Origin: Diadema setosum
Lineage: Eukaryota; Echinodermata; Echinoidea; Diadematoida; Diadematidae
Length of the DNA: 64,000 nt
Reading direction: 5' to 3'
NCBI RefSeq assembly: GCF_964275005.1
Contig: NC_092693.1
Span: 23,897,122-23,961,121 of the forward strand
Each line of letters begins with the position of its first letter. Within the stretch, counting starts at the first letter, position 1. Under the pieces are notes generated by a model. The model had not been told where the DNA came from and did not search any database. It saw nothing but the letters and a program-made list of their open reading frames with translations. The position numbers were made by a program, and so were the translations under genes. Shown one piece after another: positions 1,783 through 64,000 of this stretch.

Positions 1783-1784
1783 CT

Positions 1785-1822: not shown

Positions 1823-1826
<4 letters not shown>

Positions 1827-28034: not shown

Positions 28035-28526
28035 ACTTTGTAATACTTTTTTGTTGAGTCATGAATATGCTGATAAATAAAAGCATGGTATTAAGTATAT
28101 AGGGGCACTATTTGATCTTCATCAATTTGAAGGTCTGTTCGGCTAAATAATAACGTCAAGTTGTTTATTACATTACTGCTTGTAATGGACTGTTTCATAC
28201 TGTCATATGAGGGCTCTCAGTATATAACATTATATTGGTCTCGATAAGGCACATCTGCGCTCGAGTGGTAAATGAATTTTGCATTACATCTCTATATCAC
28301 GATCTAGCCAAGCACTTGTATATTGCGAAATTTAAATCTATCTGACAAACTCACCCTAGTTCGATTGTGGTGCCCATCCTTTCAGTGACTGGTTTGGGAC
28401 AACTTCGGCTGGAATACTTCGAAGTTTGTGTGTTTGCTTTGAAGACATCAAGGTGTTGAACATAATATCATGTTCAGATCCGTATGCACTACACGTCTGA
28501 GGACTGTGCAGCTGCAGTTCTTATCT

Positions 28527-29310
28527 TCATATTTTGTGTAGCAATTCTACTTTCGCAAGTGACCACTCCGTAGCATCGCAAAGTTAGAGAACACGTTTAT
28601 TTCTCTTGGTATTTAGGGTCTTACTGTCACTGACGGCTTCTTGCATTACAGTGTGCTGCTCATCAATTTTGGTTAGAATGACAAGTATGTTGTCAATTGT
28701 GCATGTGTTTGCTAGGAAAATTTCTTCTCATTTAATTGTGGTCCTTCCTCCCACACTGGGAAATTCAGCAAACGGCAAAACTGACTTCGGCGCCTCGGTG
28801 CTATTCCTCTTGTTTTTCTCTTCGGTTTCCAATCACAGACTCCATTTTTCATCACCTTATTCCATTCTACTTTTGGATTCAACACATCCTCGTTTCTTAC
28901 AGACTTCTTATGTCTTGGGGATTTTCCTCGGGCATCCACCTTTTTGACACATTTTTGTTTACTGTCGTTCTCGGCTTTACGAGAGTTTTGACGCATTTTC
29001 TTCTTTGGCTTGATCACTAGTTCTACACGAGGTGAGTTGAAGTACTTCCCCTGTCTTTTGCGGGCATGGTTTGTTGTTCTCAATGACTGCGGAAATTTCG
29101 TTCCTTTGATGGATCGAAATTGTGTCTATGCAACACGACATCTGACATTGAAGATTTGAAGTACGAGTTTCTCATGAACTTTCCGGGAGTAATCCCTGAT
29201 CTCCCACCCTGAATAAAATCTTTCTTCACTGTTCCGAACCAGTTTTCCACGAGCGCGTTAGTGTCTCTATTGGAACTTGGAGGACAAGGCCATAATCCTA
29301 CCAACCACAT
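28527..29310 (-). CDS. Array block alpha, unit 1 (one ENWFGTVKK repeat)
   Basis: It starts at MWLVGLWPCPPSSNRDTNAL, leading into VENWFGTVKKDFIQGG and GKFMRNSYF. Full units follow this with VRGRVAETQF and a Lys/Arg-rich stretch. I recall T-N-x-x-V-E-N-W/Y-F-x-x-K and G-x-F-I as the C-terminal part of a transposase-derived family found beside USP-like domains in invertebrates. This is memory, not a search. The frame passes from repeat to lysine-rich tail without a break between 29083 and 28712, but the downstream donor GTAAGT is CGAAGT here. The block has one repeat, the fewest in the array, and its partner exons A and H are missing at the array edge. Confidence 0.55.
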
Positions 29311-30271
29311 TACTTAATCCATGTATTCATCAACCAGTTTACCAAAACAAAAGTCACTCTCAAGTGACTGTATTGTGACTTGTCAATCACCCTTAATCCA
29401 GGCAATGTTATCTTTTGCGTTCAGTTCGGTTATATTATATCCTATGGCGAAAGGAAATTACATTCAAGTAATAGGCTAGCGGCTGCAATTGTACACTTTC
29501 CTAAAACAAAGAATTGTATGTTACTGTAAGATTTTGACGTCATCGAGCGCGTACAGTACGTATCCAAGTGACTCTCCATGTGCTGGCAATGGCGCTGCAG
29601 TTTCTTCCACACCGTCCCTTAGTCCATCGTAACAAAACCACCGTCCCCCTTCTCTGAAGATGCAGGTGAAGTGTGCACGTTGGTACTTTGTCAAGCCTTG
29701 CAGTGTATACCTACATTTTAGAGAAGAGTGAATGACCAATCATAAGAACCTTGAAAACTTCATAGACCACACAACATCTCTCGATCTCGAGTGCGAAAAT
29801 GCGAACAAAGCAGTACACGGTAGACTGTCAGACTATGAAATATATTATGTAGGGGCCTAATTAATAATCGTTCCTTTTCATAAATCCTAAGTAATATAAT
29901 TACATACAATACGCATCTATGCATTATTGGTGTACGTTCTGGTCATATCTTCCCATATCATGGTCTGGGATGATATTTATATTTTTCATCACAAATTTTC
30001 ATTTTCATAATGGCAGTGTGGTTCATTGTTTATATATTAGTTTTTACGATGATATCATATCATTTCAACCACTTCGTAGAATTCATACCTTTAAGCTATT
30101 CACAAAATAAACAATGGGAACTTGAGTGTAGACTAGAAAGTAGTTTGAGCATTATGGCGATTGCACATGTCCCTGCTCATACCATAAAATCAAACAACAT
30201 CATTTACACTAGTAAACAAGACCATTGTGACGTAACTAGAAAACGGCGAAAGGTCATTGCGTCGAATATTT

Positions 30272-31650
30272 GGGTCTCACACCTGTAAATAAAATGGACT
30301 GTCCCAGACCCCATAAAGGCAGGGAATCCCATTTGCACGCCTTAAATGAAGAGTTGTATAAATACAGTGGTATGTTGAAGAGAGTATCATTTTAGAAACT
30401 CCCATAAAGTATTGAAAGTGGAAAGTAACATTTAGTACATTTTTTTGACCGTTAGATTTTGAATTGAATTGTTTTCGGGGCTCACCGTAAATTCCAGTAC
30501 ATTACTAGGCTACCTTTGCAGACCCATGTACTGCATGTGTGTCCATCATGTATATTTTGTGAAGAAAGTTCATCAACACTTACAAACATTTCTATATACA
30601 TTCTTGCCACACACTCTATATGTTATTACATCAGCTCTTGTACTTGTAGATTTGTGTTTATAGATCACAAATACAGAAGAATGCAACAAAAAGGCGTAAG
30701 TGTGGCTGACACACAGAACTACTGAATAGTTGAGTTTTGTGCATTATTAAAATTTTAGATAACTGTTGACTTCCAAATTTCTAAGCAGTGGCCTAAGCAA
30801 GTCCCCTGATGTTCATATTTAATGTTTTGCTGCATTTTGGGAGGTCTGTAAAAGGTATCCCCTACCTTGATACCAAAATAAATGAAGAAAAAATGATAAT
30901 TACAAATCAATGTGGTAGTTGGACAAAAAAAAAAAAAAAAACCTGAATAGCTGTAGATATTGAGTATGAATTCCTCTACAAACTGCTTTTAGCTTGGAAG
31001 ATGAAAGTTTTTCTGATGGAATTTGAGGGGACTTTATTTCATTGGGTACGTGTACGGAAAATACTTTAGTAGGTGATTTTTTGAGTGACAAGAACTCGTA
31101 GTCTGGCTTTGCGGACCCTTGGACAAAATTTGAGCCGAAGCACTCACCCTTGAAATATGATGGATGAAAGGGTGTATCTCACTTATCCAGGTTAGTGAAG
31201 CTGAAACACCTCATTTCTCCCAGCTATTTTACAGAATTTTTTGAAATTTGAAGTTTAACACACGTCTCTATGGGGAATTATTTACCCCTGTGAGCCCAAT
31301 AGAGAATGCACGCAATGCATACAAGTCTATGGGAAGTGTTCTTCCCATACAAGCTCTGCTGGTTTATGTTTATCTTGTATTGTATCAGATCTCATAAGGT
31401 GATGACGGCACCCCCACAATCAACGACAACTGCCTGTATCTACATGTATTCATCTTATGAAGAACTAATCAACACTGCAAAATTTATTTACAAAAAAACA
31501 AAAAACAAAGGGCATGATTTTCAAAAGTGTCCCTTTGAGAAGCTTTATAACCCTTGAATGTGTAATTTCTCATATGATGTAGAGGAAAATATCATCAAAA
31601 GCACATTTATGATGTTAAAAAGTGAAATAAGAAATATGACCTTCATTATA
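30272..31650. mobile_element. 1.38-kb insertion in the A-H intron of unit 2
   Basis: In other units GCGTCGAATATCTT runs directly into AAAGTCGAGCGCATTTAAAC. Here 1.38 kb separates the two. The insert starts GGGTCTCACACC, contains ACTGTCCCAGACCCCATAAAGGCAGGGAATCCC and holds a segment (30930-31115) inverted relative to the MITE interior at 23990-24165. It sits at the same point as the TTAA element in the 57-kb unit. Confidence 0.65.
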
Positions 31651-31738
31651 AAGTCGAGCGCATTTAAACAGTGTGCTGCCATCTACTGTTCAATAAATGT
31701 ACAGGATCCCAGCACTGACAGCTTCCACTGCCAATAAT

Positions 31739-32000
31739 GGCAGTGTGGTTTGGCAATAATTGATTATATAACTTAGTTTTTACGATGATATGATATCATT
31801 TGAACCACTTCGTAGAGTTCAGACATTTTAGCAATTCACAAAATAAACAATGGAAACTTGAGAGTAGACTAGAAAGTAGTTTGCGCATTATGGCGTTTGT
31901 ACATACCCCTGCTCAACATCAGTTACACTATGTATGACGGTTTAACATGACCATTGTGACGTAACTACAAAACGACGAAATATCATTGCGTCGAATATTT
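31739..32000. repeat. Local duplication at a recombination junction in unit 2
   Basis: After the unit sequence CTTCCACTGCCAATAATGGCAG the text jumps back to GTGTGGTTT and repeats the section seen at about 30015-30270. It then runs again into GTCGATCGCATTTAGATAGTG and TCTACTGTTCGATAAATG. The switch occurs at TAATGGCAGTG, present at both places, suggesting a microhomology-mediated exchange. Confidence 0.6.
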
Positions 32001-32348
32001 AAAGTCGATCGCATTTAGATAGTGTCCTGTCATCTACTGTTCGATAAATGTACAGGATCCGAGCAATGACAGCTTCCACTGCCAAAAATGGCAGCTCTTT
32101 GGCGCGGCGGTCTCCGCTACAAGACTACTCCTTGTTGTGGTATAATCCCTTTGACAGACGCAATGTTTATGGGAGCAAAGCTTGTCCAAAATAATTGCCC
32201 ACGAAATTATCATGTCCAAAGTGTTATTATGTCTCTAAACACGTAGATACACAAAATGTTAAACAAACATAAGTGCGAGGTATATAAAATTGCCTCACAT
32301 CACTACCAACAGAAAAAAAAGAAATTGCTACCGTCACTCTCACAGACT

Positions 32349-32379
<31 letters not shown>

Positions 32380-33349
32380 TGGTGGTCTGTAATGACAAAG
32401 TTTCCAGTTTACTCACTCTTCAGAAACAGATGTTTCGCCGCATCGCGAACCAGTTGTTTAGGGCATGTTGTACTGTGTCTACATTCTGCTCCTTGGCTCC
32501 TCTGAAATAGAAACAAATACATGAATACAGATATCTTAAAAGATGTAGAGCAATAAACGCATAAATGAGCAAAAGATAGAATGAATAAACTAACCACATT
32601 CAGCTATATCTCTCTTACAGTAGGACGGTTTTATTACAACTGTCCCTTTATACAAGCTAATAGGTATAATGGCATCATAATGTCATTGCTTAAAAGTCAA
32701 TGTATGCACCAGACAGAACAAGTTACGTGTAGTACTAATTTCCAAAGATTCACTTTCGATTTCTTTACTGATGGTAGTGTGGCATCAGTCTATAACATAT
32801 GGATTGACATATGAGAATCCATACCACAAACGACTTGTGTTCATAAATCAAAATGAAGTAGGGCATTTGAATACTTTGCTGTTGAGTCATGACTATGTTG
32901 ATAATAAAAAGCATGGTATTAAGTTTGTAGGGGGGCTATGTGATTTTCATGAATTTGAAGGTCTCTTCAGTGAAATGATGACGTCAAGTTCTTTATTACA
33001 TCACTGCTTGTAATGGACTGTTTCATATGAGGGCTCTCAGTATAACATTATATTGGTCTAGATATGGCACATCTGCGCTAGAGTGGTAAATTCATAAATT
33101 TGACATTAAATCTCGATATCACGATCTAGCTAAGCACTTGTATATTGCGAAATTTAAATCTGACAAACTCACCCTAGTTCCATTGTGGTGCCCTTCCTTT
33201 ATGTGACTAGTTTGGGACAACTTCGGCTGGAATACTTCGACGTTTGTGTGTTTGCTTTGAAGACATCAAGGTGTTGAACATGATATAATTTTCAGATCCG
33301 TATGCACTCCACGTCTGAGGACTGTGCAGCTGCAGTTCTTATCTTCGTA

Positions 33350-35146
33350 TTTTGTGTTGCCATTCTTCTTTCGCAAGTGACCACTCCTTAGCAGCGCAAA
33401 GTTCAAGAACACGTTTATTTCTCTTGGTATTTAGGGTCTTACTGTCACTGGGAACTTCTTGCATTGCAGTGTGCTGCTCCTCAATTTTGGTTAGAATGAC
33501 AAGTATGTTGTCAAATGTGCATGTGTTTGCTAGGAAAATGTCTTTTCATTAAATTGTGGTCTTTTCTCCCCATCTGGGAAATTCAGCAATAGGCATAACT
33601 GACTAACGCGCGTTGAGGCTATTCCTCTTTTTTTTTCTCTTCGGTTTCCGATTACAACCCCGATTTCTCATTCCCTTGTTCCATTCTTCTTTTGGATTCA
33701 ACGAATCCTCTTTTCTTGGAGACTTCTTACGTCTTATGGGATTTTTGACATCTTTTTGTTCACTTTCGTTCTAAGTTTCGCGAGAGGTTTGATGCGTTTT
33801 CTTCTCTGGCTTGATCAGTTCTACACGAGGTGAGTTGAAGTACTTCCCCTGTCTTTTGCGGGTATGGTTTGTTGTTGTCAATGACTGCGGACATTTCCTT
33901 CCTTTGATGGGTCGAAATTGTGTCTCTGCAACACGACCTCTGACATTGAAGTACGAGTTTCTGATGAACTTTCCTGGACTAATCCCTGATGTCCCCCCCC
34001 CCCCCCCCCGGAATTAAAATTTATCTTCACTGTTCCGAACCAGTTTTCCACCTTTTTTACATCTTTTTGTTCACTGTCGCTCTCAGCTTTACGAGAGTTT
34101 TGACGCGTTTTCTTCTCTGGCTTGATCAGTTCTACACGAGGTGAGTTGAAGTACATCCCTTGTCTTTTGCGGGCATGGTTTGTTGTTGTCAATGACTTCG
34201 GACATTTCCTTCCTTTAATGGGTCGAAATTGTGTCTCTGCAACACGACCCCTGACATTGAAGTACGAGTTTTTGATGAACTTTCCGAGAGTAATACCTGA
34301 TCTCCCACCGGGAATGAAATGTTTCTTCACTGTTCAGAACCAGTTTTCCACCTTTTTCACATCTTTTTGTTCACTGTACTTCTCCGCTTTACGAGAGTTT
34401 TGACGCGTTTTCTTCTTTGGCATGATCAGTTCTTCACGAGGTGATTTGAAGTACTTCCCCTGTCTTTTTCGAAATTGTGTCTCTGCAACACGACCTCTGA
34501 CATTGAAGTACGAGTTCCTGATGAACTTTCCTAGAGTAATACCTGATCTCACACCGGGAATGACATCTTTCTTCACGGTTCCGAACCAGTTTTTCACCTT
34601 TTTCACATCTTTTTGTTCACGATCGTTCTCAGCTTTGCGAGCGTTTTGACGCGTTTCCTTCTCTGGCTTGATCAGCTCTTCACGAGGTGAGTTGAAGTAC
34701 TTCCCCTGTCTTTTCTGAAATCGTGTCTCTGCAACACGACCTCTGACATTGAAGTACGAGTTTCTAATGAACTTTACGGGAGTAATCCCTGATCTCCCAC
34801 CGGGAATGAAATGTTTCTTCACTGTTCCGAACCAGTTTTCCACCTTTTTCACATCTTTCTGTTCACTGTCATTCTCAGTTTTACGAGAGTTTTGACGCGT
34901 TTCCTTCTCTGGCTTGATCAGTTCTTCACGAGGTGAGTTGAAGTACTTCCCCTGTCTTGTTCGAAATTGTGTCTCTGCAACACGACCTCTGACATTGAAG
35001 TACGAGTTTCTAATGAACTTTACGGGAGTATTCCCTGATCTCCCACCGGGACCGGGAATGAAATCTTTCTTCAGTGTTCCGAACCAGTTTTTCACGAGCG
35101 CGTTAGTGTCACTATTGGAACTTGGAGGACAGCGCCAAAATCCCAC
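33350..35146 (-). CDS. Array block alpha, unit 2 (five repeats, longest open frame)
   Basis: Starts MGFWRCPPSSNSDTNALVKN. A single frame of 270 codons (34334-35146) spans three consecutive 82-residue repeats, each with WFGTVKK.FIPGG, GKFIRNSYFNVRGRVAET, KRQGKYFNSPREELI and KTRQNSRKAENDSEQKDVKK. Two more repeats follow, both of the terminal type with an extra PIKGRKCPKSLTTTNH segment. The first is still in frame, the last is shifted at a C/G run. The usual stop and lysine-rich tail are diverged here. Frame conservation across three repeats is the best evidence that the minus strand is the coding strand. Confidence 0.6.
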
Positions 35147-35373
35147 CTACTACATTACTTAATTTATGTGTTGGTCAACCAATTTTCCAAATCAAAAGTC
35201 ACTCTCACGTGACTGTACTGTGACTGATAGTCAGTCACCATTAATCCATGTGCAGGCAATGTTATCTTTTCTGTTCAGTCAGTTGGGTAATATCCTATAG
35301 CGAAAGGAACTTACTTTCAAGTTATATGCCAGCAGCTGCAATTCTACACTTTCCTAAAACAAGGAATTGTATT

Positions 35374-37320
35374 TTACTGTAAAGTTCTGACGTCATCGAG
35401 CGCGTACAGTATGTATCCAAGTGGCTCTCCATATGCTGGCAATGGCGCTGCAGTTTCTTCCACACCGTCCCTTCGTCCATCCAGGGAGGTGAGAGCACCT
35501 CCCTGGTCCATCGTAACAAAACCACCGCTCCCCCCCCCCCCCCTTCTCTGAAGATGCAGAAGTGTGCACTTTGGTACTTTGTCAATCCTTGCAGTGGATA
35601 CCTACATTTTAGAGAAGAGTGAATGACCAATCATAAGAACCTTGAAAACTTCATAGACCACACAACATCTCTCGATCTCGAGTGCGAAAATGCGTACAAA
35701 GCAGTAAACGTTTGAATGTCAAACTATGTAAGATATAATATAATAATCGTTCCTTTTCAACTGGAACTTAAATGATTTAATTACATTCAATATACATCTT
35801 GGCATTATCAGTCTACGTTCAGGTCATATCTTCTCATATAATGCCTGGAATGATATGTCTATCATTCATAAGAAATTTTCGTTTTCATCATTTAAGTGTG
35901 GTCAATTGTTTAGACATTAGTTTCTACGATGATATCATATCATTTGAACTCTTCGTAGAGTTCAGACCTTTTAGCTATTCACGCTACCGTTCAATTAAAA
36001 TGTACAGGATCCGAGCAATGACAGGTTCCACTGACAAATATGGCAGCTCTTCGGCGCGGCAGCCTCCGCTACAAGACTACTCCTTGTTGTGGTAAAATCT
36101 CTTTGGTAGTCGCAATGATTCTGGGAGCAAAGCTCGTCCAAAATAATTGCCCACGAAATTATCATGTCCAAAGTGTTATTATGTCTCTAAACACATAGAT
36201 ACACAAAATGTTAAGGAAACATAAGTGGGGGTATATAAAATTGCCTCACATCACTACGAACAGAAATAACAACAACATCAAATTATGCTACAGTCACTCT
36301 TACAGACTGATTGGATTATGGTGCTATGTAATGACAAATTTTTAAGTTTACTTACTCTTCAGAAGCAGATGTTTCGATGCATCGGGTCTCTGCAAATGGC
36401 GGGGCGAACCAGTTGTTTAAGGCATCTTGTACTGTGCCTATATTATGTTCCTTGGCAGCTCTGAAATAAAAAGAAATAAATGAATACAGATATCTTAATG
36501 GATGTTTAGCAGTAAATGCATAAATGAGCAAAGATAGAATAAAAAAAAAAACTTAACGCATTCAGTTACATCTCTCTAACAAAATGACGGTTTTTGTTAT
36601 AATGGTCCCTTTATATAAGCGAATAGGTATAATGGCATCACGATGTCATTGCTTAAAAGTCAATGTATGCACCAGACAGAAGAAGTTACGTATAGTACAA
36701 ATTTCCAAAGATTCACTTTCGATTTCTTCACTGATGGTAGTGTGACATCAGTCTATAATGGATCGACATCTTTGAATCTATAACACGGACGAATTGTGTT
36801 CATAAACCAAAATAAAGTAGGACATTGGAATACTTTGTTGCTGAGTCATGAATATGTTGATAATAAAAAGCATGGTCGGGGTCCTACGTGATCTTCATCA
36901 ATTTGACAGTCTCTTCGGTGAAAAAAGAACGTCAAGTTGCAGAGGCGGATCCAGGAATTTCGTAAAGAGGGGGCGTGTTTACAAAAATAAAGGGGGGCGC
37001 ACGCACCCCTCCCCCATTTGTTTCTTTTTATTTCTTTTGTTTCAACAAAAAATAAAGGGGGGGGGGCGTGCGCCGTTTGTGGTCCTCACTGGATCCGCCC
37101 CTGAAGTTGTTTATTACATCACTGTTTGTAAGGGACTGTTTAATATGAGGACTCTCAGTATATAACATTATATTGGTCTCGATATGGCACAACTGTGCTC
37201 GAGTGATAAATTAATGAATTTTGCATTTCATCTTTATATCACGATCTTCCTAAGCATTCTATATTTTGCGAATTTTAAATCTATCTAACCAACTCACCCT
37301 AGTTCGATTGTGGTGCAATT
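35374..37320 (-). pseudogene. USP-tail gene, unit 3, degenerate
   Basis: Exon A (36356-36460, 105 nt) keeps both splice sites and reads AKEHNIGTVQDALNNWFAPP. Exon H (35374-35601) is 228 nt, lengthened by an insertion between RDG and the VEETAA part and by a G run. The first exon (near 37298) lacks the ATG. A 164-bp MITE (36940-37103) sits upstream in the intron. Confidence 0.6.
36940..37103. mobile_element. GGCGGATCCAG MITE, copy 2, inserted in an array unit
   Basis: The ends are CAGAGGCGGATCCAG and CTGGATCCGCCCCTG, flanked by AAGTTG on both sides (36934-36939, 37104-37109). Sister units read GTCAAGTTGTTTAT without interruption, so the insertion came after the array had begun to expand. Confidence 0.9.
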
Positions 37321-37469
37321 CCTTTCAGTGACTGGTTTGGGACAACTTCGGCTGGAATACTTCGAAGTTTGTCTGTTTGCTTTGAAGACATCAAGGTGTT
37401 GAACATAATATCATGTTCAGATCCGTATGCACTCCACGTCTGAGGACTGTGCAGCTGCAGTTCTTATCT

Positions 37470-38505
37470 TCATATTTTGTGTAGCCATTTTACATTCGCA
37501 AGTGACTACTCCTTAGCATCGCAAAGTTAAAGAACGCGTTTATTTCTCTTGGTTTTTAGGGTCTTACTGTCACTGAGGGCTTCTTGCATTACAGTGTGCT
37601 GCTCATCAATTTTGGTTAGAATGACAAGTATGTTGTCAATTGTGCATGTGTTTGCTAGGATAAGTTTCTTCTCATTTAATTGTGGTCCTTCCTCCCCTTT
37701 GGGAAATTCAGCAAACGGCAAAACTGACTTACGCGCCTCGTTTCTATTCCTCATCTTTTTTCTCTTCGGTTTCCGATCACAGACTCGATTTTTCTTTCCC
37801 TTATTCCATTCTTCTTTTCGATTCAACGCATCCTCTTTTCTTGGAGACTTTTAACGTCTTGGGGATTTTCCTTGGTCATCCACCTTTTGACATCTTTTTC
37901 TTCTCTGTCGTTCTCAGCTTTACGAGAGTTTTGACTCGTTTTCTTCTTTGGCTTGATCAGACCTTCACGAGGTGAGTTGAAGTACTTCCTCTGTTGGATG
38001 GTTTGTTGTTGTCAATGACTGGGGACATTTCCTTCCTTTCATGGGTCGAAATTGTGTCTCTGCAACACAACCTCCGACATTGAAGTACGAGTTTCTGATG
38101 AACTTTCCGGGACTAATCCCTGATCTCCATCCCCCCCACCCCCGGGAATGAAATCTTTCTTTACTGTTCCGAACCAGTTTTCCACCTTTTTCACATCTTT
38201 TTGTTCACTGTACTTCTCACTTTTACGAGAGTTTTGACGCGTTTTCTTCTCTGGCATGATCAGTTCTTCACGAGGTGAGTTGATGTACTTCCCCTGCATT
38301 TGCCCTGTCTTTTTCGAAATCGTGTCTCTGCAACACGACCTCTGACATTGAAGTACGAGTTTCTGATGAACTTTCCGGGAGTAATCCCTGATCTCCCACC
38401 CTGAATGAAATCTTTCTTCACTGTTCCGAACCAGTTTTCCACGAGCGCGTTAGTGTCTCTATTGGAACTTGGAGGACAAGGCCATAATCCTACCAACCAC
38501 ATCAC
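37470..38505 (-). CDS. Array block alpha, unit 3 (two repeats)
   Basis: Two ENWFGTVKK repeats are followed by the lysine-rich tail. A 78-bp intron (37655-37732; GCGC/GTAAGT and CCTAG/CAAAC) removes a stretch whose frame differs between units and joins NRNEA in phase to P-NTCTIDNILVILTKIDEQHT. The closing exon here meets a stop early (KRVL). The first repeat carries an 11-nt GGCAAATGCAG-type insertion that shifts its frame. Confidence 0.5.
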
Positions 38506-38714
38506 TTAATTCATGTGTTGATCTACCAATTTACCAAAACAAAAGTCTCTCTCATGTGACTGTGTTCTGACTAGTTAATCATCATTAATCCAGGCAATGT
38601 TATCTTCAAGTTGCGTTCAGTTGGGTAATATCCTATAGCGTTAGGAAATTACATTGAAGTTATAGGAAAGCAGCTGCAATTCTACAATTTATTATAACAA
38701 ACAATTGCAGTTTG

Positions 38715-40670: not shown

Positions 40671-40819
40671 CCTTTCAGTGACTGGTTTGGGACAACTTCG
40701 GCTGGAATACTTCGAAGTTTGTCTGTTTGCTTTGAAGACATCAAAGTGTTGAACATAATATCATGTTCAGATCCGTATGCACTCCACGTCTCAGGACTGT
40801 GCAGCTGCAGTTCTTATCT

Positions 40820-41858: not shown

Positions 41859-42066
41859 TACTTAATCCATGTGTTCATCAACCAGTTTACCAAAACAAAA
41901 GTCCCTCTCATGTGACTGTATTGTGACTAGTTAATCATCATTAATCCATGGAATGTTATCTTTTGCGTTCAGTTGGGTAATATCCTATAGCGTACGGAAA
42001 TTACATTGAAGTTATAGGCAAGCAGCTGCATTTCTACACTTTCCTATAACAAACAATTGCAGTTTG

Positions 42067-44032: not shown

Positions 44033-44181
44033 CCTTTCAGTGACTGGTTTGGGACAACTTCGGCTGGAATACTTCGAAGTTTGTGTGTTTGCTTTGAAGA
44101 CATCAAGGTGTTGAACATAATATCATGTGCAGATCCGTATGCACTCCACGTCTGAGGACTGCGCAGCTGCAGTTCTAATCT

Positions 44182-47387: not shown

Positions 47388-47536
47388 CCTTTCAGTGACT
47401 GGTTTGGGACAACTTCGGCTGGAATACTTCGAAGTTTGTGTGTTTGCTTTGAAGACATCAAGGTGTTGAACATAATATCATGTGCAGATCCGTATGCACT
47501 CCACGTCTGAGGACTGCGCAGCTGCAGTTCTAATCT

Positions 47537-48564: not shown

Positions 48565-48772
48565 TACTTAATTCATGTGTTCATCAACCAGTTTACCAAA
48601 ACAAAAGTAACTCTCATGTGACTGTATTGTGACTAGTTAATCATCATTAATCCATGCAATCTTATCTTTTGCGTTCAGTTGGGTAATATCCTATAGCGTT
48701 AGGAAATTACATTAAAGTTATAGGTAAGCAGCTGCATTTCTACACTTTCCTATAACAAACAATTGCAGTTTG

Positions 48773-50727: not shown

Positions 50728-50875
50728 CCTTTCAGTGACTGGTTTGGGACAACTTCGGCTGGAATACTTCGAAGTTTGTGTGTTCGCTTTGAAGACATCC
50801 AGGTGCTGAACATTATATCATGTTTAGATCCGTATGCACTCCACGTCTGAGGACTGTACAGCTCAGTTCTTACCT

Positions 50876-52400: not shown

Positions 52401-52614
52401 CCATATTACTTAATTCATGTGTTCATCAACCAGTTTACCAAAACAAAAGTCACTCTCATGTGACTGTATTGTGACTAGTTAATCATCATTAATCCATGCA
52501 ATCTTATCTTTTGCGTTCAGTTGGGTAATATCCTATAGCGAAAGGAAATTACATTGAAGTTATAGGCAAGCAGCTGCATTTCTACACTTTCCTATAACAA
52601 ATAATTGCAGTTTG

Positions 52615-54560
52615 CTATAAGGTTTTCACGTCATCGAGCGCGTGAAGTATGTATCCAAGTGACTCTCCATATGCTGGCAATGGCGCTGCAGTTTCTTCCA
52701 CACCGTCCCTTAGTCCATCGTAACAAAACCACCGCTCCTCCCCCCCCCCCCTTCTCTGAAGATGCATGTGAAGTGTGCACTTTGGTACTTTGTCAAGCCT
52801 TGCAGTGTATACCTACATTTTAGAGAAGAGTGAATGACCAATCATAAGAACCTTGAAAACTTAATAGACCACACAACATCTCTCGATCTCGAGTGCGAAA
52901 ATGCGTACAAAGCAGTAAGCGTTTGAATGTCAAACTATGTAAGATATAATATTATAATGGTTCCTTTTCAACTGGATCCTAAATGATTTAATTACATGGA
53001 ATATACATCTTGGCATTATCAATCTACGTTCATGTCATATCTTCTCATATAATGCCTGGCATGATATGTCTATCATTCATAAGAAATTTTCGTTTTCATC
53101 ATTTAAGTGTGGTCAATTGTTTAGACATTAATTTTTACGATGATATCATATTATTTAAACTCTTCGTAGAGTTCAGACCTTTTAGTTATTCACAGAATAA
53201 ACAATAGAAACTTTAGTCTTAGACTAGAATAGTTTGAGCATTGTGACGTTTTTTTACATACCCCTGCTCAGCATCAGGAACACTACATATAACGCTTTAA
53301 TATGATATTGTGACGTAACTACAAAACGGCGAAAGGTCATTGCGTCGAATATCTTAAAGTCGAGCGCATTTAAACAGTGTGCTGTCATCTACTGTTCGAT
53401 AAATGTACAGGATCCGAGCAATGACAGCTTCCACTGACAAAAATGGCAGCTCTTTGGCGCGCAGACTCCGCTACAAGACTACTCCTTGTTGTGGTAAAAT
53501 CTCTTTGGTAGTCGCAATGATTCTGGGAGCAAAGCTCGTCCAAAATAATTGCCCACGAAATTATCATGCCCAAAGTGTTATTATGTCTCTAAACACATAG
53601 ATACACAAAATGTTAAGGAAACATAAGTGCGAGGTATATAAAATTGCCTCACGTCACTACGAACAGAAATAACAACAACATCAAATTATGCTACAGTCAC
53701 TCTTTCAGACTGATTGGATTATGGTGCTATGTAATGACAAAGTTTCCAGTTTACTTACTCTTCAGAAGCAGATGTTTCTCTGCATCGGGTCTCTGCAAAT
53801 GGCGCGGCGAACCAGTTGTTTAAGGCATCTTGTACTGTGCCTATATTATGCTCATTGGCAGCTCTGAAATAAAAAGAAATAAATGGTTACAGATATCTTA
53901 ATGGATGTTTAGCAGTGAATGCATAAATGAGCAAAGATAGAATATAAAAAAAAAAGCTTAACACATTCTGTTATATCTCTCTCAGAAAATGACAATTTTA
54001 TTATAATGGTCCCTTTATATAAGCAAATAGGTATAATGGCATCACGATGTCATTGCTTAAAAGTCAATGTATGCACCAGACAGAACAAATTACGAATAGT
54101 ACTAATTTCCAAAGATTCACTTTCGATTTCTTCAGTGATGGTAGTGTGGCATCAGTCTATAATGGATTGACATCTTTGAATCTATAACACGGACGAATTG
54201 TGTTCATAAACCAAAATAGAATAAGACATTGGAATACTTTGTTGTTGAGTCATGAATATGTTGATAAGAAAGCATGGTATTAAGTATGTAAGGATGCTAC
54301 GTGATCTTCATCAATTTGACAGTCTCCGATGAAAAAAGAACGTCAAGTTGTTTATTACATCACTGTTTATAATGGACTCTTTAATATGAGGGCTCTCAGT
54401 ATATAACATTATATTGGTTTCGATATAGCACATCTGCGCTCGAGTGATACATTAATGAATTTTGCATTACATCTCTATATCACGATCTAGCCAAGCACTT
54501 GTATATTGCGAAATTTAAATCTATCTGACAAACTCACCCTAGTTCGATTGTGGTGCCCAT
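52615..54560 (-). pseudogene. USP-tail gene, unit 8, frame-shifted by the G run
   Basis: Exons are 54538-54560, 53759-53863 and 52615-52812. Exon H is 198 nt, two over the in-frame length, due to the G run. Exon A and both its splice sites are intact. Confidence 0.6.
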
Positions 54561-54709
54561 CCTTTCAGTGACTGGTTTGGGACAACTTCGGCTGGAATAC
54601 TTCGAAGTTTGTGTGTTTGCTTTGAAGACATCAAGGTGTTGAACATAATATCATGTTCAGATCCGTATGCACTCCACGTCTGAGGACTGTGCAGCTGCAG
54701 TTCTTATCT

Positions 54710-56272
54710 TCATTTTTTGTGTAGCCATTCTACTTTCGCAAGTGACCACTCCGTAGCATCGCAAAGTTAGAGAACACGTCTATTTCTCTTGGGTTTTAGG
54801 GTCCTAATGTCACTGACGGCTTCTTGTATTACAGTGTGCTTCTCATCAATTTTGGTTAGAATGACAAATATGTTGTCAATTGTGCATGTGTTTGCTAGGA
54901 TAATTTCTTCTCATTTAATTGTGGTCCTTCCTCCTCATTTGGGAAATTCAGCAAACGGCAAAACTGACTTACGCGCCTCGTTACTATTCCTCTTTTTTTT
55001 CTCTTCGGTTTCCTATCACATACTCGATTTTTCTTTCCCTAATTCTATCTTCTTTTGGATTAAACGCATCCTCTTTTTCTTGGAGACTTCTTACGTCTTT
55101 GGGATTTTCCTCGGTCATCGACCTTCTGACATCTTTTTATTTTTACTGTCGTTCTCAGCTTTACGAGAGTTTTGACGCGTTTTCTTCTCTGGCTTGATCA
55201 GTTCTACATGAGGTGAGTTGAAGTACTTCCCCTGTCTTTTGCGGGTATGGTTTGTTGTTGTCAATGACTGCGGACATTTCCTTCCTTTGATGGGTCGAAA
55301 TTGTGTCTCTGCAATACGACCTCTGACATTAAAGTACGAGTTTCTGATGAACTTTCCGGGACTAATCCCTGATCTCTCTCCCCCACCCCCCCCCCCCCCG
55401 GGAATGAAATGTTTCTTCACTGTTCCAAACCAGTTTTCCACCTTTTTGATATCTTTTTGTTCACTGTCATTCTCACTTTTACGAGAGTTTTGACGCGTTT
55501 TCTTCTTTGGCTTTATCAGTTCTTCACGAGGTGAGTTGATGTACTTCCCCTGCATTTGCCCTGTCTTTTTCGAAATTGTGTCTCTCCAATACGACCTCTG
55601 ACATTAAAGTACGAGTTTCTGATGAACTTTCCGGGAGTAATCCCTGATCTCCCACCCTGAGAGAAATCTTTCTTCACTGTTCCGAACCAGTTTTCCACCT
55701 TTTTGATATCTTTCTGTTTACCGTCATACTCACTTTTACGAGAGTTTTTGACACGTTTTCTTCTTTGGCATAATCAGTTTTTCACGAGGTGAGTTGAAGT
55801 ACTTCCCCTGCATTTGCCCTGTCTTTTTCGAAATTGTGTCTCTGCAACACGACCTCTGACATCGAAGTACGAGTTTCTGATGAACTTTCCGGGACTAATC
55901 CCTGATCTCCCCCCCCCCCCCCCCGGGAATGAAATCTTTCTTCACTGTTCCGAACTAGTTTTCCACCTTTTTGACATCTTTTTGTTCACTGTCATTCTCA
56001 CTTTTACGAGAGTTTTGACGCGTTTTCTCTTTTGGCATGATCAGTTCTTCACGAGGTGAGTTGAATTACTTCCCCTGTCTTTTTCGAAATTGTGTCTCTG
56101 CAACACGACCTCTGACATTGCAGTACGAGTTTCTGATGAACTTTCCGGGAGTAATCCCTGATCTCCCACCCTGAATGAAATCTTTCTTCACTGTCCCGAA
56201 CCAGTTTTCCACTAGCGCGTTAGTGTCTCTATTGGAACTTGGAGGACAAGGCCATAGTCCTACCAACCACAT
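54710..56272 (-). CDS. Array block alpha, unit 8 (four repeats)
   Basis: Opens MWLVGLWPCPPSSNRDTNAL. The repeat order and variant types parallel unit 7, pointing to a shared four-repeat ancestor. The C run near 55379-55399 is interrupted (CCCCCACCCCC...), which may limit further slippage. Confidence 0.5.
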
Positions 56273-56482
56273 TACTTAATTCATGTGTTCATCAACCAGT
56301 TTAGCAAAACAAAAGTCACTCTCATGTGACTGTATTGTGACTATAGTTAATCATCATTAATCCATGCAATGTTATCTTTTGCGTTTAGTTGGGTAATATC
56401 CTATAGCGTACGGAAATTACATTGAAGTTATAGGCAAGCAGCTGCATTTCTACACTTTCCTATAACAAAGAATTGGAGTTTG

Positions 56483-58813
56483 CTATAAGGTTTTCACATC
56501 ATCGAGCGCGTGAAGTATGTATCCAACTGGCTCTCCATATGCTGGCAATGGCGCTGCAGTTTCTTCCACACCGTCCCTTCGTCCATCGTAACAAAACCAC
56601 CGTTCCTCCCCCCCCCCCCCTTCTCTGAAGATGCATGTGAAGTGTGCACTTTGGTACTTTGTCAAGCCTTGCAGTGTATACCTACATTTTAGAGAAGAGT
56701 GAATGACCAATCATAAGAACCTTGAAAACTTAATAGACCACACAACATCTCTCGATCTCGAGTGCGAAAATGCGTACAAAGCAGTAAGCGTTTGAATGTC
56801 AAACTATTAATTTTTACGATGATATCATATCATTTAAACTCTTCGTAGAGTTCAGACCTTTCAGTTATTCACAGAATAAACAATGGAAACTTTAGTCTTA
56901 GACTAGAAAGTAGTTTGAGCATTATGACGTTTTTTTACATACCCCTGCTCAGCATCAGGAACACTACATATAACGCTTTAATATGATATTGTGACGTAAC
57001 TACAAAACGGCGAAAGGTCATTGCGTCGAATATCTTAAAGGGAAGATAAACCCCAAGAACAAAGTGGATTGAGTGAAAGCAGCAACATTAGTAGAACACA
57101 TCAATGAAAGTTTGAGGAAAATCGGACAATCGATGCAAAAGTTATGAATTTTTAAAGTTTTGGTGTTGGAACCGCTGGATGGGGAGACTACTAGAGGATA
57201 TGACGTATGAGTGGACAACAATACAAAGAAAATATAAAGGAAATTCAACAAAAATTCACTTTTCTAGAATTATGAAAGAGCAGTGGACCAACCGCTTTCA
57301 GAAAGCAGGGGGAATAATTGCTACCCTTAACATATGTCAATATCAAGTTGATGGAATTTGTAATTTTCATGAAAAATTGATTTTTGTAGTATTTTCTTTA
57401 TATTTCCTTGGTATTGTTGTCCACTCATACGTCATAACCTCCAGTAGTCTCCTCATCCAGCGGTTCCAACATCAAAACTTTAAAAATTCATAACTTTTGC
57501 ATCGATTGTCTGATTTTCTTCAAACTTTCACTGATGTGTTCCAATAATGTTGCTGCTTTCACTCAATCCACATTGTTCTTGGGGTTTATCTTCCCTTTAA
57601 AGTCGAGCGCATTTAAACAGTGTGCTGCCATCTACTGTTCAATAAATGTACAGGATCCGAGCAATGACAGCTTCCACTGACAAAAATGGCAGCTCTTTGG
57701 CGCGGCAGCCTCCGCTACAAGACTACTCCTTGTTGTGGTAAAATCTCTTTGGTAGTCGCAATGATTCTGGGAGCAAAGCTCGTCCAAAATAATTGCCCAC
57801 GAAATTATCATGTCCAAAGTGTTATTATGTCTATATACACATAGATACACAAAATGTTAAGGAAACATAAGTGCGAGGTATATAAAATTGCCTCACATCA
57901 CTAGGAACAGAAATAACAACAACATCAAATTATGCTACCGTCACTCTTACAGACTGATTGGATTATGGTGCTATGTCATTACAAAGTTTCCAGTTTACTT
58001 ACTTTTCAGAAGCAGATGTTTCGCTGCATCTGGTCTCTGCAAATGCCGGGGCGAACCAGTTGTTTAAGGCATCTTGTACTGTGCCTATATTATGCTCCTT
58101 GGCAGCTCTGAAATACACAGAAATAAATGAATACAGATATCTTAATGGATGTTTAGCAGTAAATGCATAAATGAGCAAAGATAGAATTAAAAAAAAAACA
58201 ACTTAACGCATTCAGTTATATCTCTCTAACAAATTACGATTTATGTTATAATGGTCCCTTTATATAAACGAATAGGTTTAATGGCATCATGTAATTGCTT
58301 AAAAGTCAATGTGTGCACCTGACTTAAGAAGTTACGTATAGTGCTAATTTCCAAAGATTCACTTTCGATTTCTTCACTGATGGTAGTGTGGCATCAGTAT
58401 ATAAAAAATATATGCATTGACATCTTTGAATCTATAACACGGACGAATTGTTTTCATAAACTAAAATAAAATAGGACATTGGAATACTTTGTTGTTGAGT
58501 CATGAATATGTTGATTAAAAAAAAAAGAATGGTATTAAGTATGTAGGGGTGCTATGTGATCTTCATCATTTTGGCGGTCTCTTCGATGAAAAAATAACGT
58601 CAAGTTGTTTATACATCACTGTTTCCAATGGACTGTTTCATATGAAAGCTCTCTTATAACATTATGTTGGTCTCGATATAGCACATCTGCGCTCGAGTGG
58701 TAAATTAATTAATTTTGCATTACATCTCTATATCACGATCTAGCCAAGCACTTGTATATTGCGAAATTTAAATCTATCTGACAAACTCACCCTAGTTCGA
58801 TTGTGGTGCCCAT
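56483..58813 (-). CDS. USP-tail gene, unit 9, in-frame model with TE-expanded intron
   Basis: Exons are 58791-58813, 58003-58107 and 56483-56681 (23, 105 and 199 nt; in frame, 108 residues, one more glycine than unit 7). The A-H intron is enlarged by the 558-bp TTAA element but keeps its splice sites (GAAAA/GTAAGT). Confidence 0.6.
57039..57596. mobile_element. 558-bp TTAA-site MITE inserted in an array unit
   Basis: The ends AGGGAAGATAAACCCCAAGAAC and their exact inverse are flanked by TTAA on both sides (57035-57038, 57597-57600). Other units read TATCTTAAAGTCGAG, the single-TTAA empty site. The long inner TIR (GGAACCGCTGGATG...CATCCAGCGGTTCC) matches the family at 8032-9185. The good preservation suggests recent movement. 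piggyBac-type targeting; no transposase. Confidence 0.92.
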
Positions 58814-58962
58814 CATTTCAGTGACTGGTTTGGGACAACTTCGGCTGGAATACTTCGAAGTTTGTGTGTTTGCTTTGAAGACATCAAGGTGTTGAACATA
58901 ATATCATGTTCAGATCCGTATGCACTCCACGTCTGAGGACTGTGCAGCTGCAGTTCTTATCT

Positions 58963-60754
58963 TCATTTTATGTGTAGCAATTCTACTTTCCCAAGTGACC
59001 ACTCCGTAGCATCGCAAAGTTAGAGAACACGTCTATTTCTCTTGGGTTTTAGGGTCCTAATGTCACTGACGGCTTCTTGCATTACAGTGTGCTTCTCATC
59101 AATTTTGGTTAGAATGACAAATATGTTGTCAATTGTGCATGTGTTTGCTAGGATAATTTCTTCTCATTTAATTGTGGTCCTTCCTCCTCATTTGGGAAAT
59201 TCAGCAAACGGCAAAACTGACTTACGCGCCTCGTTACTATTCCTCTTTTTTTTTTCTCTTCGGTTTCCTATCACATACTCGATTTTTCTTTCCCTAATTC
59301 CATCTTCTTTTGGATTCAACGCATCCTCTTTTTCTTCGAGACTTCTTACGTCTTTGGGATTTTCCTCGGTCATCGACCTTCTGACATCTTTTTATTTTTA
59401 CTGTCGTTCTCAGCTTTACGAGAGTTTTGACGCGTTTTCTTCTCTGCCTTGATCAGTTCTACATGAGGTGAGTTGAAGTACTTCCCCTGTCTTTTGCGGG
59501 TATGGTTTGTTGTTGTCAATGACTGCGGACATTTCCTTCCTTTGATGGGTCGAAATTGTGTCTCTGCAATACGACCTCTGACATTAAAGTACGAGTTTCT
59601 GATGAACTTTCAGGGACTAATCCCTGATCTCCCCCCCCCCCCTGGGAATGAAATCTTTCTTCACTGTTCCGAACCAGTTTTCCACCTTTTTGATATCTTT
59701 TTGTTCACTGTCATTCTCACTTTTACGAGAGTTTTGACGCGTTTTCTTCTTTGGCATTATCAGTTCTTCACGAGGTGAGTTGAAGTACTTCCCCTGCATT
59801 TGCCCTGTCTTTTTCGAAATTGTGTCTGTGCAACACGACCTCTGACATCGAAGTACGAGTTTCTGATGAACTTTCCGGGACTAATCCCTGATCTCCCCCC
59901 CCCCCCCCGGAATGAAATCTTTCTTCACTGTTCCGAACTAGTTTTCCACCTTTTTGACATCTTTTTGTTCACTGTCATTCTCACTTTTACGAGAGTTTTG
60001 ACGCGTTTTCTCTTTTGGCATGATCAGTTCTTCACGAGGTGAGTTGAATTACTTCCCCTGTCTTTTTCGAAATTGTGTCTCTGCAACACGACCTCTGACA
60101 TTGCAGTACGAGTTTCTGATGAACTTTCCGGGAGTAATCCCTGATCTCCCACCCTGAATGAAATCATTCTTTACTGTTCCGAACCAGTTTTCCACCTTTT
60201 TGATATCTTTTTGTTCACTGTCATTCTCACTTTTACGAGAGTTTTGACGAGTTTTCTTCTTTGGCGTAATCAGTTTTACCACGAGGTGAGTTAAAGTACT
60301 TCCCCTGCATTTGCCCTGTCTTTTTCGAAATTGTGTCTCTGCAACACGACCTCTGACATTGAAGTACGAGTTTCTGATCACTTTCCGGGAGTAATCCCTG
60401 ATCTCCCACCCTGGGAATGAAATCTTTCTTCACTGTTCCGAACCAGTTTTCCACCTTTTTGACATCTTTTTGTTCACTGTCATTCTCACTTTTACGAGAG
60501 TTTTGACGAGTTTTCTTCTTTGGCATGATAAGTTCTTCACGAGGTGAGTTGATGTACTTCCCCTGTCTTTTTCGAAATTGTGTCTCTGCAACACGACCTC
60601 TGACATTGAAGTACGAGTTTCTGATGAACTTTCCGGGAGTAATCCCTGATCTCCCACCCTGAATGAAATCTTTCTTCACTGTTCCGAACCAGTTTTCCAC
60701 GAGCGCGTTAGTGTCTCTATTGGAACTTGGAGGACAAGGCCATAATCCTACCAA
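58963..60754 (-). CDS. Array block alpha, unit 9 (five repeats)
   Basis: The first repeats read continuously for 173 codons from 60754 (MVGLWPCPPSSNRDTNAL). This is the second-longest frame of this block in the window after unit 2. Several repeats have short poly-C runs or none (CCACCCTG in place of the run), which is where the frame stays open. Confidence 0.5.
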
Positions 60755-60970
60755 CCACTTTACTTAATTCATGTGTTCATCAACCAGTTTACCAAAACAA
60801 AAGTCACTCTCATGTGACTGTATTGTGACTATAGTTAATCATCATTAATCCATGCAATGTTATCTTTTGCGTTTAGTTAGGTAATATCCTATAGCGTACG
60901 GAAATTACATTGAAGTTATAGGCAAGCAGCTGCATTTCTACACTTTCCTATAACAAAGAATTGCAGTTTG

Positions 60971-62927
60971 CTATAAGGTTTTCACGTCATCGAGCGCGTG
61001 AAGTATGTATCCAAGTGGCTCTCCATATGCTGGCAATGGCGCTGCAGTTTCTTCCACACCGTCCCTTAGTCCATCGTAACAAAACCACCGCTCCTCCCCC
61101 CCCCCTTCTCTGAAGATGCATGTGAAGTGTGCACTTTGGTACTTTGTCAAGCCTTGCAGTGTATACCTACATTTTAGAGAAGAGTGAATGACCAATCATA
61201 AGAACCTTGAAAACTTCATAGACCACACAACATCTCTCTATCTCGAGAGCGAAAATGCGTACAAAGCAGTAAGCGTTTGAATGTCAAACTATGTAAGATA
61301 TAATATTATAATCGTTCCTTTTCAACTGGATCCTAAATGATTTAAGTACATTCAATATACACCTTGGCATTATCAATCTACGTTCATGTCATATCTTCTC
61401 ATATAATGCCTGGAATGATATATCTATTATTCATAAGAAATTTTCGTTTTCATCATTTAAGTGAGGTCAATTGTTTAGACATTAATTTTTACGATGATAT
61501 CATATCATTTAAACTCTTCGTAGAGTTCAGACTTTTTAGTTATTCACAGAATAAACAATGGAAACTTAAGTCTTAGACTAGAGAGTAGTTTGAGCATTAT
61601 GACGTTTTTTTACATACCTCTGCTCAGCATCAGGAACACTACATATAACGCTTTAATATGATATTGTGACGTGACTACAAAACGGCGAAAGGTCATTGCG
61701 TCGAATATCTTAAAGTCGAGCTCATTTAAACAGTGTGCTGCCATCTACTGTTCAATAAATGTACAGGATCCGAGCAATGACAGCTTCCACTGACAAAAAT
61801 GGCAGCTCTTTGGCGCGGCAGCCTCCGCTACACTACTCCTTGTTGTGGTAAAATCTCTTTGGTAGTCGCAATGATTCTGGGAGCAAAGCTCGTCCAAAAT
61901 AATTGCCCACAAAATTATCATGTCCAAAGTGTTATTATGTCTCTAAACACATAGATACACAAAATGTTAAGGAAACATAAGTGCGAGGTATATAAAATTG
62001 CCTCACGTCACTACGAACAGAAATAACAACAACATCAAATTATGCTACCGTCACTCTTACAGACTGATTGGATTATGGTGCTATGTAATGACAAAGTTTC
62101 CAGTTTACTTACTTTTCTGAAGCAGATGTTTCGCTGCATCTGGTCTCTGCAAATGGCGGGGCGAACCAGTTGTTTAAGGCATCTTGTACTGTGCCTATAT
62201 TATGCTCCTTGGCAGCTCTGAAATAAAAAGAAATAAATGAACACAGATATCTTAATGGATGTTTAGCAGTAAATGCATAAATGAGCAAAGATAGAATAAA
62301 AAAAAACTTAACGCATTCAGTTATATCTCTTTAACAAATTACGATTTTTTTTTTTATAATGGTCCCTTTATATAAGCGAATAGGTTTAATGGCATCATGT
62401 AATTGCTTAAAAGTCAATGTGTGCACCTGACTTAAGAAGTTACGTATAGTGCTAATTTCCAAAAATTCACTTTCGATTTCTTCACTGATGGTAGTGTGGC
62501 ATCAGTATATAAAAAATATATGCATTGACATCTTTGAATCTATAACACGGACGAATTGTTTTCATAAACTAAAATAAAATAGGACATTGGAATACTTTGT
62601 TGTTGAGTCATGAATGTGTTGATAAAAAAAAGAAAGAATGGTATTAAATATGTAGGGGTGCTATGTGATCTTCATCACTTTGGCGGTCTCTTCGATGAAA
62701 AAATAACGTCAAGTTGTTTATACATCACTGGTGGCAATGGATTGTTTCATATGAAAGCTCTCTTATAACATTATATTGGTCTCGATATAGCACATATATT
62801 CTGCGCTCGAGTGGTAAATTAATTAATTTTGCATTACATCTCTATATCACGATCTAGCCAAGCACGTGTATATTGCGAAATTTAAATCTATCTGACAAAC
62901 TCACCCTAGTTCGATTGTGGTGCCCAT
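60971..62927 (-). CDS. USP-tail gene, unit 10, intact three-exon model
   Basis: Exons are 62905-62927, 62113-62217 and 60971-61166 (23, 105 and 196 nt; 107 residues). Exon H carries GEPLGYILHALDDVKTL as in unit 5. ATG and all four splice sites are present. Confidence 0.6.
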
Positions 62928-63076
62928 CCTTTCAGTGACTGGTTTGGGACAACTTCGGCTGGAATGCTTCGAAGTTTGTGTGTTTGCTTTGAAGACATCA
63001 AGGTGTTGAACATAATATCATGTTCAGATCCGTATGCACTCCACGTCTGAGGACTGTGCAGCTGCAGTTCTTATCT

Positions 63077-64000
63077 TCATATTTTGTGTAGCCATTCTAC
63101 TTTCCCAAGTGACCACTCCTTAGCAGCGCAAACTTAAAGAACACGTTTATTTCTCTTGGTTTTTAGGGTCTTACTGTCACTGACGGCTTCTTGTATTACA
63201 GTGTGCTGCTCATCAATTTTGGTTGGAATGACAAGTATGTTGTCAATTGTGCATGTGTTTGCTAGGATAATTTCTTCTCATTTAATTGTGGTCCTTCCTC
63301 CCCATCTGGGAAATTCAGCAAACGACAAAACTGACTTACGCGCCTCGTTGCTATTCCTCATCTTTTTTCTCTTCGGTTTCCTATCACATACTCGATTTTT
63401 CTTTCCCTTATTCCATTCTTCTTTTGGATTCAACGCATCCTCTTTTTCTTGGAGACTTCTTACGTCATTGGGATTTTCCTCGGCCATCGACCTTCTAACA
63501 TGTTTTTATTTTTACTGTCGTTCTCAGCTTTACGCGAGTTTTGACGCGTTTTCTTCTCTGGCTTGATCAGTTCTACACGAGGTGAGTTGAAGTACTTCCC
63601 CTGTCTTTTGCGGGTATGGTTTGTTGTTGTCAATGACTGCGGACATTTCCTTCCTTTGATGGGTCGAAATTGTTTCTCTGCAATATGACCTCTGACATTG
63701 AAGTACGGGTTTCTGATGAACTTTCCGGGACTAATCCCTGATCTCTCTCCCCCCCCCCCCCCCGGGAATGAAATCTTTCTTCACTGTTCCGAACCAGTTT
63801 TCCACCTTTTTGACATCTTTTTGTTCACTGTACATCATTCTCACTTTTACGAGAGTTTTGACGCGTTTTCTTCTTTGGCATGATCAGTTCTTCACGAGGT
63901 GAGTTGAATTACTTCCCCTGTCTTTTTCGAAATTGTGTCTCTGCAACACCACCTCTGACATTGAGGTACGAGTTTCTGATGAACTTTCCGGGAGTAATCC
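63077..64000 (-). CDS. Array block alpha, unit 10, partial at window edge
   Basis: The last exon and lysine-rich exon are visible (AEENPNDVRSLQEKEDALNP), followed by the terminal-type repeat and the start of a second repeat. The 5' end lies beyond the window. Confidence 0.5.

Follow-up and report, generated by a model that had tools for sequence, protein, structure and literature searches.

Results

The window, by which we mean the whole 64,000-nucleotide stretch of Diadema setosum DNA analysed here (contig NC_092693.1, below C9, positions 23,897,122 to 23,961,121), ends in a tandem array of direct units, all on the minus strand, which self-blastn, genome matches and the unit map place at 28025..64000 and which extends past the window end. 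As assembled, the array totals ~120 kb and comprises 27 tail/alpha units, continuing to ~C9:24,027,660, beyond which a 1.06-kb segment of intron/exon A sequence recurs 16-17 times as far as ~C9:24,045,700. Adjoining it is an unbroken parent gene (C9:24046861-24055123, 86 kb beyond the window end) of four exons and 1230 codons, which encodes a USP-like protease behind a DDE-like transposase core. The 1078-aa frame of its exon 1 (C9:24051890-24055123) is the sole unbroken full-length frame among the 59 matches listed (43 of 1008 candidates scored), and exons A, C and D have GT-AG splice sites and compatible phases. A candidate 'exon B' (HNNTLDMII...) is intronic in the parent model and was dropped because the phases join exon A to exon C.

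The two alternating blocks of the array correspond to parts of this gene: the 'USP tail' is its last exon, exon D, and 'alpha' the 3' portion of exon 1. In the units, exon D and its 3' flank are joined to exon 1 (from ~residue 777 onwards), which is followed by intron 1, exon A and some of intron 2; units match the parent frame only at ~residues 777-1078, with a nucleotide identity of ~79-87%. The sequence-only reading had taken the blocks for paired genes, which they are not: they are exons of one spliced gene, and in units that carry the founder junction the intervening exon is missing. Its direct minus-strand arrangement is confirmed from ~28,025 to the window end, with in-window tails spaced at 3.31-5.89 kb. 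The interval of ~210 bp from tail stop to alpha also stands (e.g., 45421 to 45215, ~205 bp), whereas the ~150 bp claimed between alpha stop and tail ATG does not, as alpha ends ~1.7 kb before the next tail (44009 to 42261), an interval occupied by intron 1, exon A and what is left of intron 2.

The window holds nine USP tails and ten alpha blocks of the array, all on the minus strand. The edge unit contributes alpha block 1 (28354..29289; ~parent residues 777-1078, one ENWF module) and an unbroken exon D tail without G-tract expansion (29527..29709), and its array homology stops inside intron 1 near 28,030. Alpha block 2 (33172..35131, five ENWF modules) is part of the most diverged full unit and is accompanied by a tail at 35380..35600. 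Alpha blocks 3 (37297..38481) and 5 (44009..45188) lie beside tails with a G-tract frameshift (38718..38910 and 45424..45616), while the tail beside alpha block 4 (40647..41837) has a G-tract that is expanded yet in frame (42070..42261). A copy of exon A lies at 43211..43315, and the founder deletion junction, in which parent intron 2 is fused to sequence immediately 5' of exon D with loss of exon C, at 45763..45883. In-frame tails accompany alpha block 6 (47364..48540; tail 48776..48967), alpha block 8 (54537..56251, four ENWF modules; tail 56486..56680) and alpha block 9 (58790..60739, five ENWF modules; tail 60974..61165); the tail of alpha block 7 (50704..52385, four ENWF modules) is frameshifted (52618..52811). 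A self-complementary (foldback/MITE-like) stretch found by self-blastn (57035..57600, no strand assigned) breaks up one unit, and alpha block 10 (62904..64000), truncated by the window end, extends on the map to array position 64,094.

Repetition occurs at three nested levels, with ENWFGTVKK modules of ~250 bp inside units of 3.0-5.9 kb, which in turn lie in duplicated blocks as long as 9.5 kb. We counted 76 modules in the array, 28 of them in the window, by blastn (77 with the parent's own), which we used instead of a fuzzy pattern count of 53 that missed the parent. Self-matches within the window span 4.4-11.5 kb at 91.8-95.8% identity, far above chance. Searches of the window for tRNAs and against Rfam at the gathering threshold gave no matches, and bacterial-code ORF lists on their own said nothing informative about the array.

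Protein domains and relatives

Homologues lie outside the array on C3, C7, C12, C18 and C19, so that their absence, which the sequence-only reading would have counted against itself, is not what we found. The relatives on C12 and C18 carry the same core joined to Pfam UCH domains (L054 on C12, 2.5e-18; L053 on C18, 1.6e-20), and the C18 relative additionally has PHD and C48. The joined 287-aa domain of the C9 parent gave no match to Pfam UCH up to E 1. Its N-x-C, two single downstream Cys, P-x-x-L-x-I and H-x-T-C-x-F align with L053/L054, and pairwise BLASTP against L053 covered the His box alone (E 0.009). A profile of the domain (A2), two of whose three rows are L053 and L054, had 79 PDB matches up to E 0.01, and the 60 listed were all named ubiquitin/Ubl hydrolases. 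A PDB phmmer search with the 61-aa tail returned weak arabinanase matches only (best E 0.47).

Neither the 1078-aa frame nor the core profile (A1) matched any PDB entry up to E 1, and Pfam transposase profiles matched none of three family members up to E 10. Residues D479, D555, C602xxH605, T786-N787-E791 and K799 are unchanged between P0001 and two sequences that show 24-25% identity to it, and would be candidates for catalytic roles. A Mutator-like (MULE) assignment found no support: in addition to the missing Pfam profile, CxxH lies 47 aa beyond D555 in the parent core, as against the 11-19 aa past D2 given for the C/D(2)H of prokaryotic Mutator-like transposases (PMC3942029). Nor were the terminal inverted repeats of a cut-and-paste transposon seen, the best inverted match between the parent's flanks being 26 bp at 88%; the downstream flank runs into the array, so an old transposon end could be lost.

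Sister loci show some of the same features. The exon D-linker-exon 1 junction occurs on C3 and C7 too, and the ENWFGTVKK segment is also multiplied on C3, as 154-bp modules with ends unlike those on C9. C7 holds a spliced copy in which exon C meets exon D save for 6 extra bases, with an exact 27-bp direct repeat and an AATAAA that ends 9 bases before the end of the insert; no poly(A) tract was seen there. This copy suggests that a transcript of a related locus once spanned the tail-alpha junction. In viral contigs, neither of two pattern matches was a relative.

Decay and turnover of the units

The junction that removes exon C occurs 26 times across the array and at none of four C3/C7 loci compared, and within the array region exon C sequence matches the parent alone. 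In the array units, where exon C is gone and stops are shared, no complete protease with its Cys box and His box within a single spliced frame is left. In an alignment of 24 of the 27 units (three were left out), all 24 share a 1-base deletion. Among the 18 units that extend there, stops are common to 17 at residue 877 and to 18 at residue 953; among the 24, to 20 at residue 1001 and to 22 each at residues 1020 and 1022.

Divergence between units is 3.35, 3.68 and 2.95% at codon positions 1, 2 and 3, and synonymous and non-synonymous change are nearly equal (dS 0.030, dN 0.033), a result that the sequence-only reading had named as evidence against itself. The pooled between-unit dN/dS is 1.09, set beside 0.155 for the parent line against a C3 relative, and the parent line thus looks constrained. 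The G-tract places tails in all three frames (6/9/8 over 23 tails, chi-square p=0.74), although the units are related and neither the pooled dN/dS nor this test consists of independent counts. For the test, 28 tails were chosen by hand from the map; those at 35600, 68325 and 94809 and the two without a G-tract (29709 and the parent's) were left out. Some observations weigh against plain decay. The edge tail and 6 of the 23 interior tails are in frame. Exons also diverge slightly less than introns: the values between units are 2.95-3.68% for exon 1 and exon A and 4.25-5.03% for introns, and those between units and parent are 8.0-10.2% for exon 1, 10.2-13.7% for exon A and 14.1-16.3% for introns, with a mean unit-parent dN of 0.073 and dS of 0.119. 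The lower divergence of exons and the unit-parent dN below dS could stem from conversion, or from constraint acting either on the parent or on the founder prior to its decay. Judged by their sequences, the units are best described as pseudogenes drifting neutrally, and they would probably yield no protein.

Turnover of the array is recent, as three unit pairs are identical to four decimals, and block copies of up to 9.5 kb reach 99.1% identity. The outermost full unit is 87% identical to other units, which fits the prediction of unequal exchange. The array thus has the head-to-tail copies, homogenised core, neutral drift and diverged edge of a TE-derived tandem (satellite-like) array.

Discussion

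We conclude, with a probability of about 0.9, that this is a nested tandem array of pseudogene fragments derived by local duplication of one transposase-protease fusion gene. A partial tandem duplication would first have created the exon D-linker-exon 1 junction, after which a founder on C9 would have lost exon C and gained disabling mutations. Amplification would then have produced the 27 units and multiplied both the module within alpha and the 1.06-kb intron/exon A segment, with turnover continuing in the core while the edge diverges. Both amplification and homogenisation presumably proceeded via unequal crossing-over or replication slippage. The array looks like a gene graveyard under continuing reshuffling, not a working-gene cluster.

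It is unlikely, though somewhat less so than the other alternatives, that the array acts as RNA, as a piRNA-like source of small RNAs silencing the unbroken parent and its relatives by a logic like that of Suppressor of Stellate. Some ~120 kb of one-strand fragments adjoin the parent they resemble, and the C7 spliced copy hints at a past transcript over the tail-alpha junction; however, units and parent lie in the same sense, so silencing would need antisense transcription, and ~79-87% identity is modest for guiding. Equally improbable is an RNA-level trap, in which read-through transcripts of the fragments would feed small-RNA silencing while recombination homogenises the core. In a weaker version, the ENWFGTVKK segment may be inherently prone to amplification, having formed modules on both C9 and C3.

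We rejected a family of small functional gene pairs, transposase-repeat and USP-like, domesticated or defence-like and transcribed as one or several units, which we regard as very improbable. The regular single-strand alternation of the blocks, the in-frame tails with a His box and the homologues elsewhere would suit it, but the between-unit dN/dS, the shared stops and frameshift, the loss of exon C, the middle of the protease, and the spread of tails across three phases argue against it. Nor was there support for genes chained through common promoters, or for a cluster of domesticated or defence type; the blocks are exons of one gene. What did find support were the transposase C-terminus, the USP-like His box, the joint amplification of both blocks and a transposon-like ancestry. 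Successive insertion of non-autonomous transposons, suggested by the transposase-like core and the related pieces on C3 and C7, is just as improbable, given head-to-tail units with internal junctions identical in kind, no terminal inverted repeat found around the parent and an exon C deletion junction confined to C9 among the loci compared.

The array, which we read as decayed copies of the parent, resembles satellite DNA born of transposable elements, such as 18HT from HeT-A/TART at the Drosophila Y centromere, where part of a transposon, 3' ends included, was amplified and homogenised in tandem, with unequal crossover as the mechanism (PMC9659126). Unlike there, the substrate on C9 is the exons and introns of a spliced transposase-protease gene, in units of 3.0-5.9 kb that contain smaller repeats and lie within larger ones, and the unbroken parent persists alongside. 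Fusions of a transposase core to a deubiquitinase- or deSUMOylase-like protease are known from Ginger1 (with Ulp1 or OTU), Mutator elements (with Ulp1) and a Trichomonas protein (transposase_11 with peptidase C19) (PMC2836005). The C9 parent has the same order, but its family's core matches no Pfam transposase family, and the protease is USP/C19-like and, in the C9 gene, spread over four exons. A literature search for transposase-USP fusions found the Ginger discussion alone; it covered subscription journals thinly, and an earlier description is possible. Like Suppressor of Stellate-type loci, the array consists of diverged tandem gene copies that could in principle feed silencing; it differs in sharing sense and locus with its parent.

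As a search for a functional gene cluster the outcome is negative. The locus instead lets us follow in stages how a coding gene's 3' half can turn into tandem repeats at several levels: the unbroken parent gene, the deletion in the founder, the sister loci and the recently copied blocks can all be read from a single genome. It also draws attention to a transposase-like core, not covered by any Pfam model, with a USP-like protease attached and with clear UCH domains in two relatives, one of which also has PHD and C48, and this bears on the recurrence of ubiquitin proteases in DNA transposons.

The array and its source gene

Self-comparison of the window (C9:23897122-23961121, C9 being contig NC_092693.1 of a genome of 912.7 Mb and 102 contigs) revealed repeats from ~28,025 to the window end, all direct and in one orientation as the sequence-only reading had proposed, the longest spanning 4.4-11.5 kb at 91.8-95.8% identity. 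By protein search, the window holds 10 alpha blocks, which carry ENWFGTVKK modules, and 9 USP tails. Joining the window with C9:23961001-24061000 gave a 163.9-kb map (position p = C9:23897121+p) with 28 USP tails, one of which belongs to an unbroken parent gene, and therefore 27 array units. Tails are spaced 3.0-4.9 kb apart, with a single exception of 5.9 kb. Searching with blastn identified 77 ENWFGTVKK modules, 76 in the array (1-5 per unit, 28 of them inside the window) and one in the parent. The tail/alpha units are followed by a sub-array of 16-17 copies of a 1.06-kb segment that contains exon A together with intron sequence (16 by exon A matches, 17 by matches over 600 bp), which ends at ~148.5 kb on the map, with the parent gene next.

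The parent begins with an unbroken open frame of 1078 codons (C9:24051890-24055123), the only full-length one without a break among 59 matches listed, counts that are lower bounds because 43 of 1008 candidates were scored. This exon 1 contains the ENWFGTVKK segment once, followed by a Cys box (NTCTIDNIL), and has a 3' donor, GTGAGC. It is joined in agreeing phases to exon A (C9:24051050-24051154; AG acceptor, donor GTAAGT), exon C (C9:24048374-24048538; AG acceptor, donor GTATCC) and exon D, the USP tail (C9:24046861-24047050; AG acceptor), for a total of 1230 codons if counting starts at the preceding stop, the first Met being codon 14. Because splice sites and phases match, the alpha block and USP tail, previously taken for paired genes, instead both belong to a single predicted gene, the first as the 3' part of exon 1 and the second as the final exon. 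Compared with a relative at C3:22443230, on another contig, the parent has dN 0.052 and dS 0.340 (ratio 0.155; 353 codons, two stops omitted); comparisons with three other pieces gave ratios of 0.24-0.52.

Two very long open frames elsewhere join a parent-type transposase-like core to UCH. The frame on C18 (C18:7941501-7948500; 1990 aa, open at the 5' edge of the stretch analysed) has PHD (5e-6), UCH (1.6e-20) and Peptidase_C48 (5.1e-9) domains and is 25% identical to the parent core over 585 aa (E 2e-39), and that on C12 (C12:34951001-34955000) has the same core with UCH at 2.5e-18. Since D479, D555, C602xxH605, T786-N787-E791 and K799 are invariant in the three-way alignment, we infer a DDE-type core; no Pfam transposase family matched it. 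The amplified module starts close to the TN...E...K segment. In motif order and alignment the C9 protease resembles a USP, but it gave no match of its own to the Pfam UCH profile.

Other repeats occur in the window. A self-complementary, MITE-like stretch of 565 bp (57035-57600) lies within one array unit and has a 75% relative at 8789-9154. Inverted arms at 1-563 and 6230-6887, ~83% alike and flanking ~5.7 kb, contain a 45-bp TTTCACTTTT-type minisatellite; window 1-6887 looks like a long foldback-type element. CCCTAAATGTAATA-type units form a degenerate tandem repeat at 18333-18586.

Decay and turnover

We aligned 24 of the 27 units to the parent. Among units reaching these residues, stops are present at 877 in 17 of 18 and at 953 in all 18; further stops occur at 1001 (20/24), 1020 (22/24) and 1022 (22/24), and a single-base loss is common to all 24. 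A junction joining parent intron 2 (map 153,175) to 150,111, with ~3.06 kb including exon C lost, is present at 26 array positions and absent from all four C3/C7 loci compared. Interior tails have an expanded G-tract, which scatters the His-box frame over the three phases (6/9/8 in 23 tails), the edge tail and six interior ones being in frame. Divergence between units is about equal at codon positions 1, 2 and 3 (3.35, 3.68 and 2.95%), with a pooled dN/dS of 1.09 (pairs not independent). The shared stops, base loss, exon C deletion, dN/dS and scattered tail frames argue against the functional gene cluster suggested earlier; judged by their sequence, the units are pseudogenes. Counting against this, exons are less divergent than introns, both between units and against the parent, and unit-parent means are dN 0.073 and dS 0.119, so some founder constraint before decay, parent constraint or conversion is likely; the in-frame tails also count against it.

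Block copies reach 9.5 kb at 99.1% identity, and three unit pairs, separated by 2-7 positions among the 24 aligned units, show identity to four decimals, gaps not counted. Similarity also declines with distance (Spearman -0.38), and the outermost full unit averages 87% similarity to the others. A homogenised core with a diverged edge is what unequal exchange would produce.

Sister loci and precedents

The exon D-linker-exon 1 order of the C9 units recurs on C3 (19.68-19.69 Mb) in one unit; a second alpha block lies ~7 kb further on, where no USP tail was detected. Both the unit and the second block contain ~8 copies of a 154-bp module around the same ENWF segment (C3 stretches L019:3173-4300 and L020:467-1700), which looks like a separate amplification. 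Tc1/mariner-like transposase pieces beside the C3 units (L019:5631-6920) and, at L019:7069-8868, short repeated frames with a FLYWCH-like YWRC...HDHPPN pattern were recognised by eye. On C7, exon C abuts exon D, the intron being absent and 6 extra bases present; the sequence continues via the linker to alpha, terminates 9 bases past AATAAA, and is bounded by an exact 27-bp direct repeat, with no poly(A) seen. This locus is probably a processed copy, so a transcript would once have spanned the tail-alpha junction, the only hint of transcription.

Satellites derived from transposons, 3' ends included, are well described (PMC9659126), and the Ginger paper (PMC2836005) discusses transposases carrying Ulp1 or OTU domains, or C19 in one protist. 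Our literature search, of incomplete coverage, found no published match for this combination. Overall, we conclude that the whole is a multi-level tandem array of decayed transposase-protease gene 3' ends.
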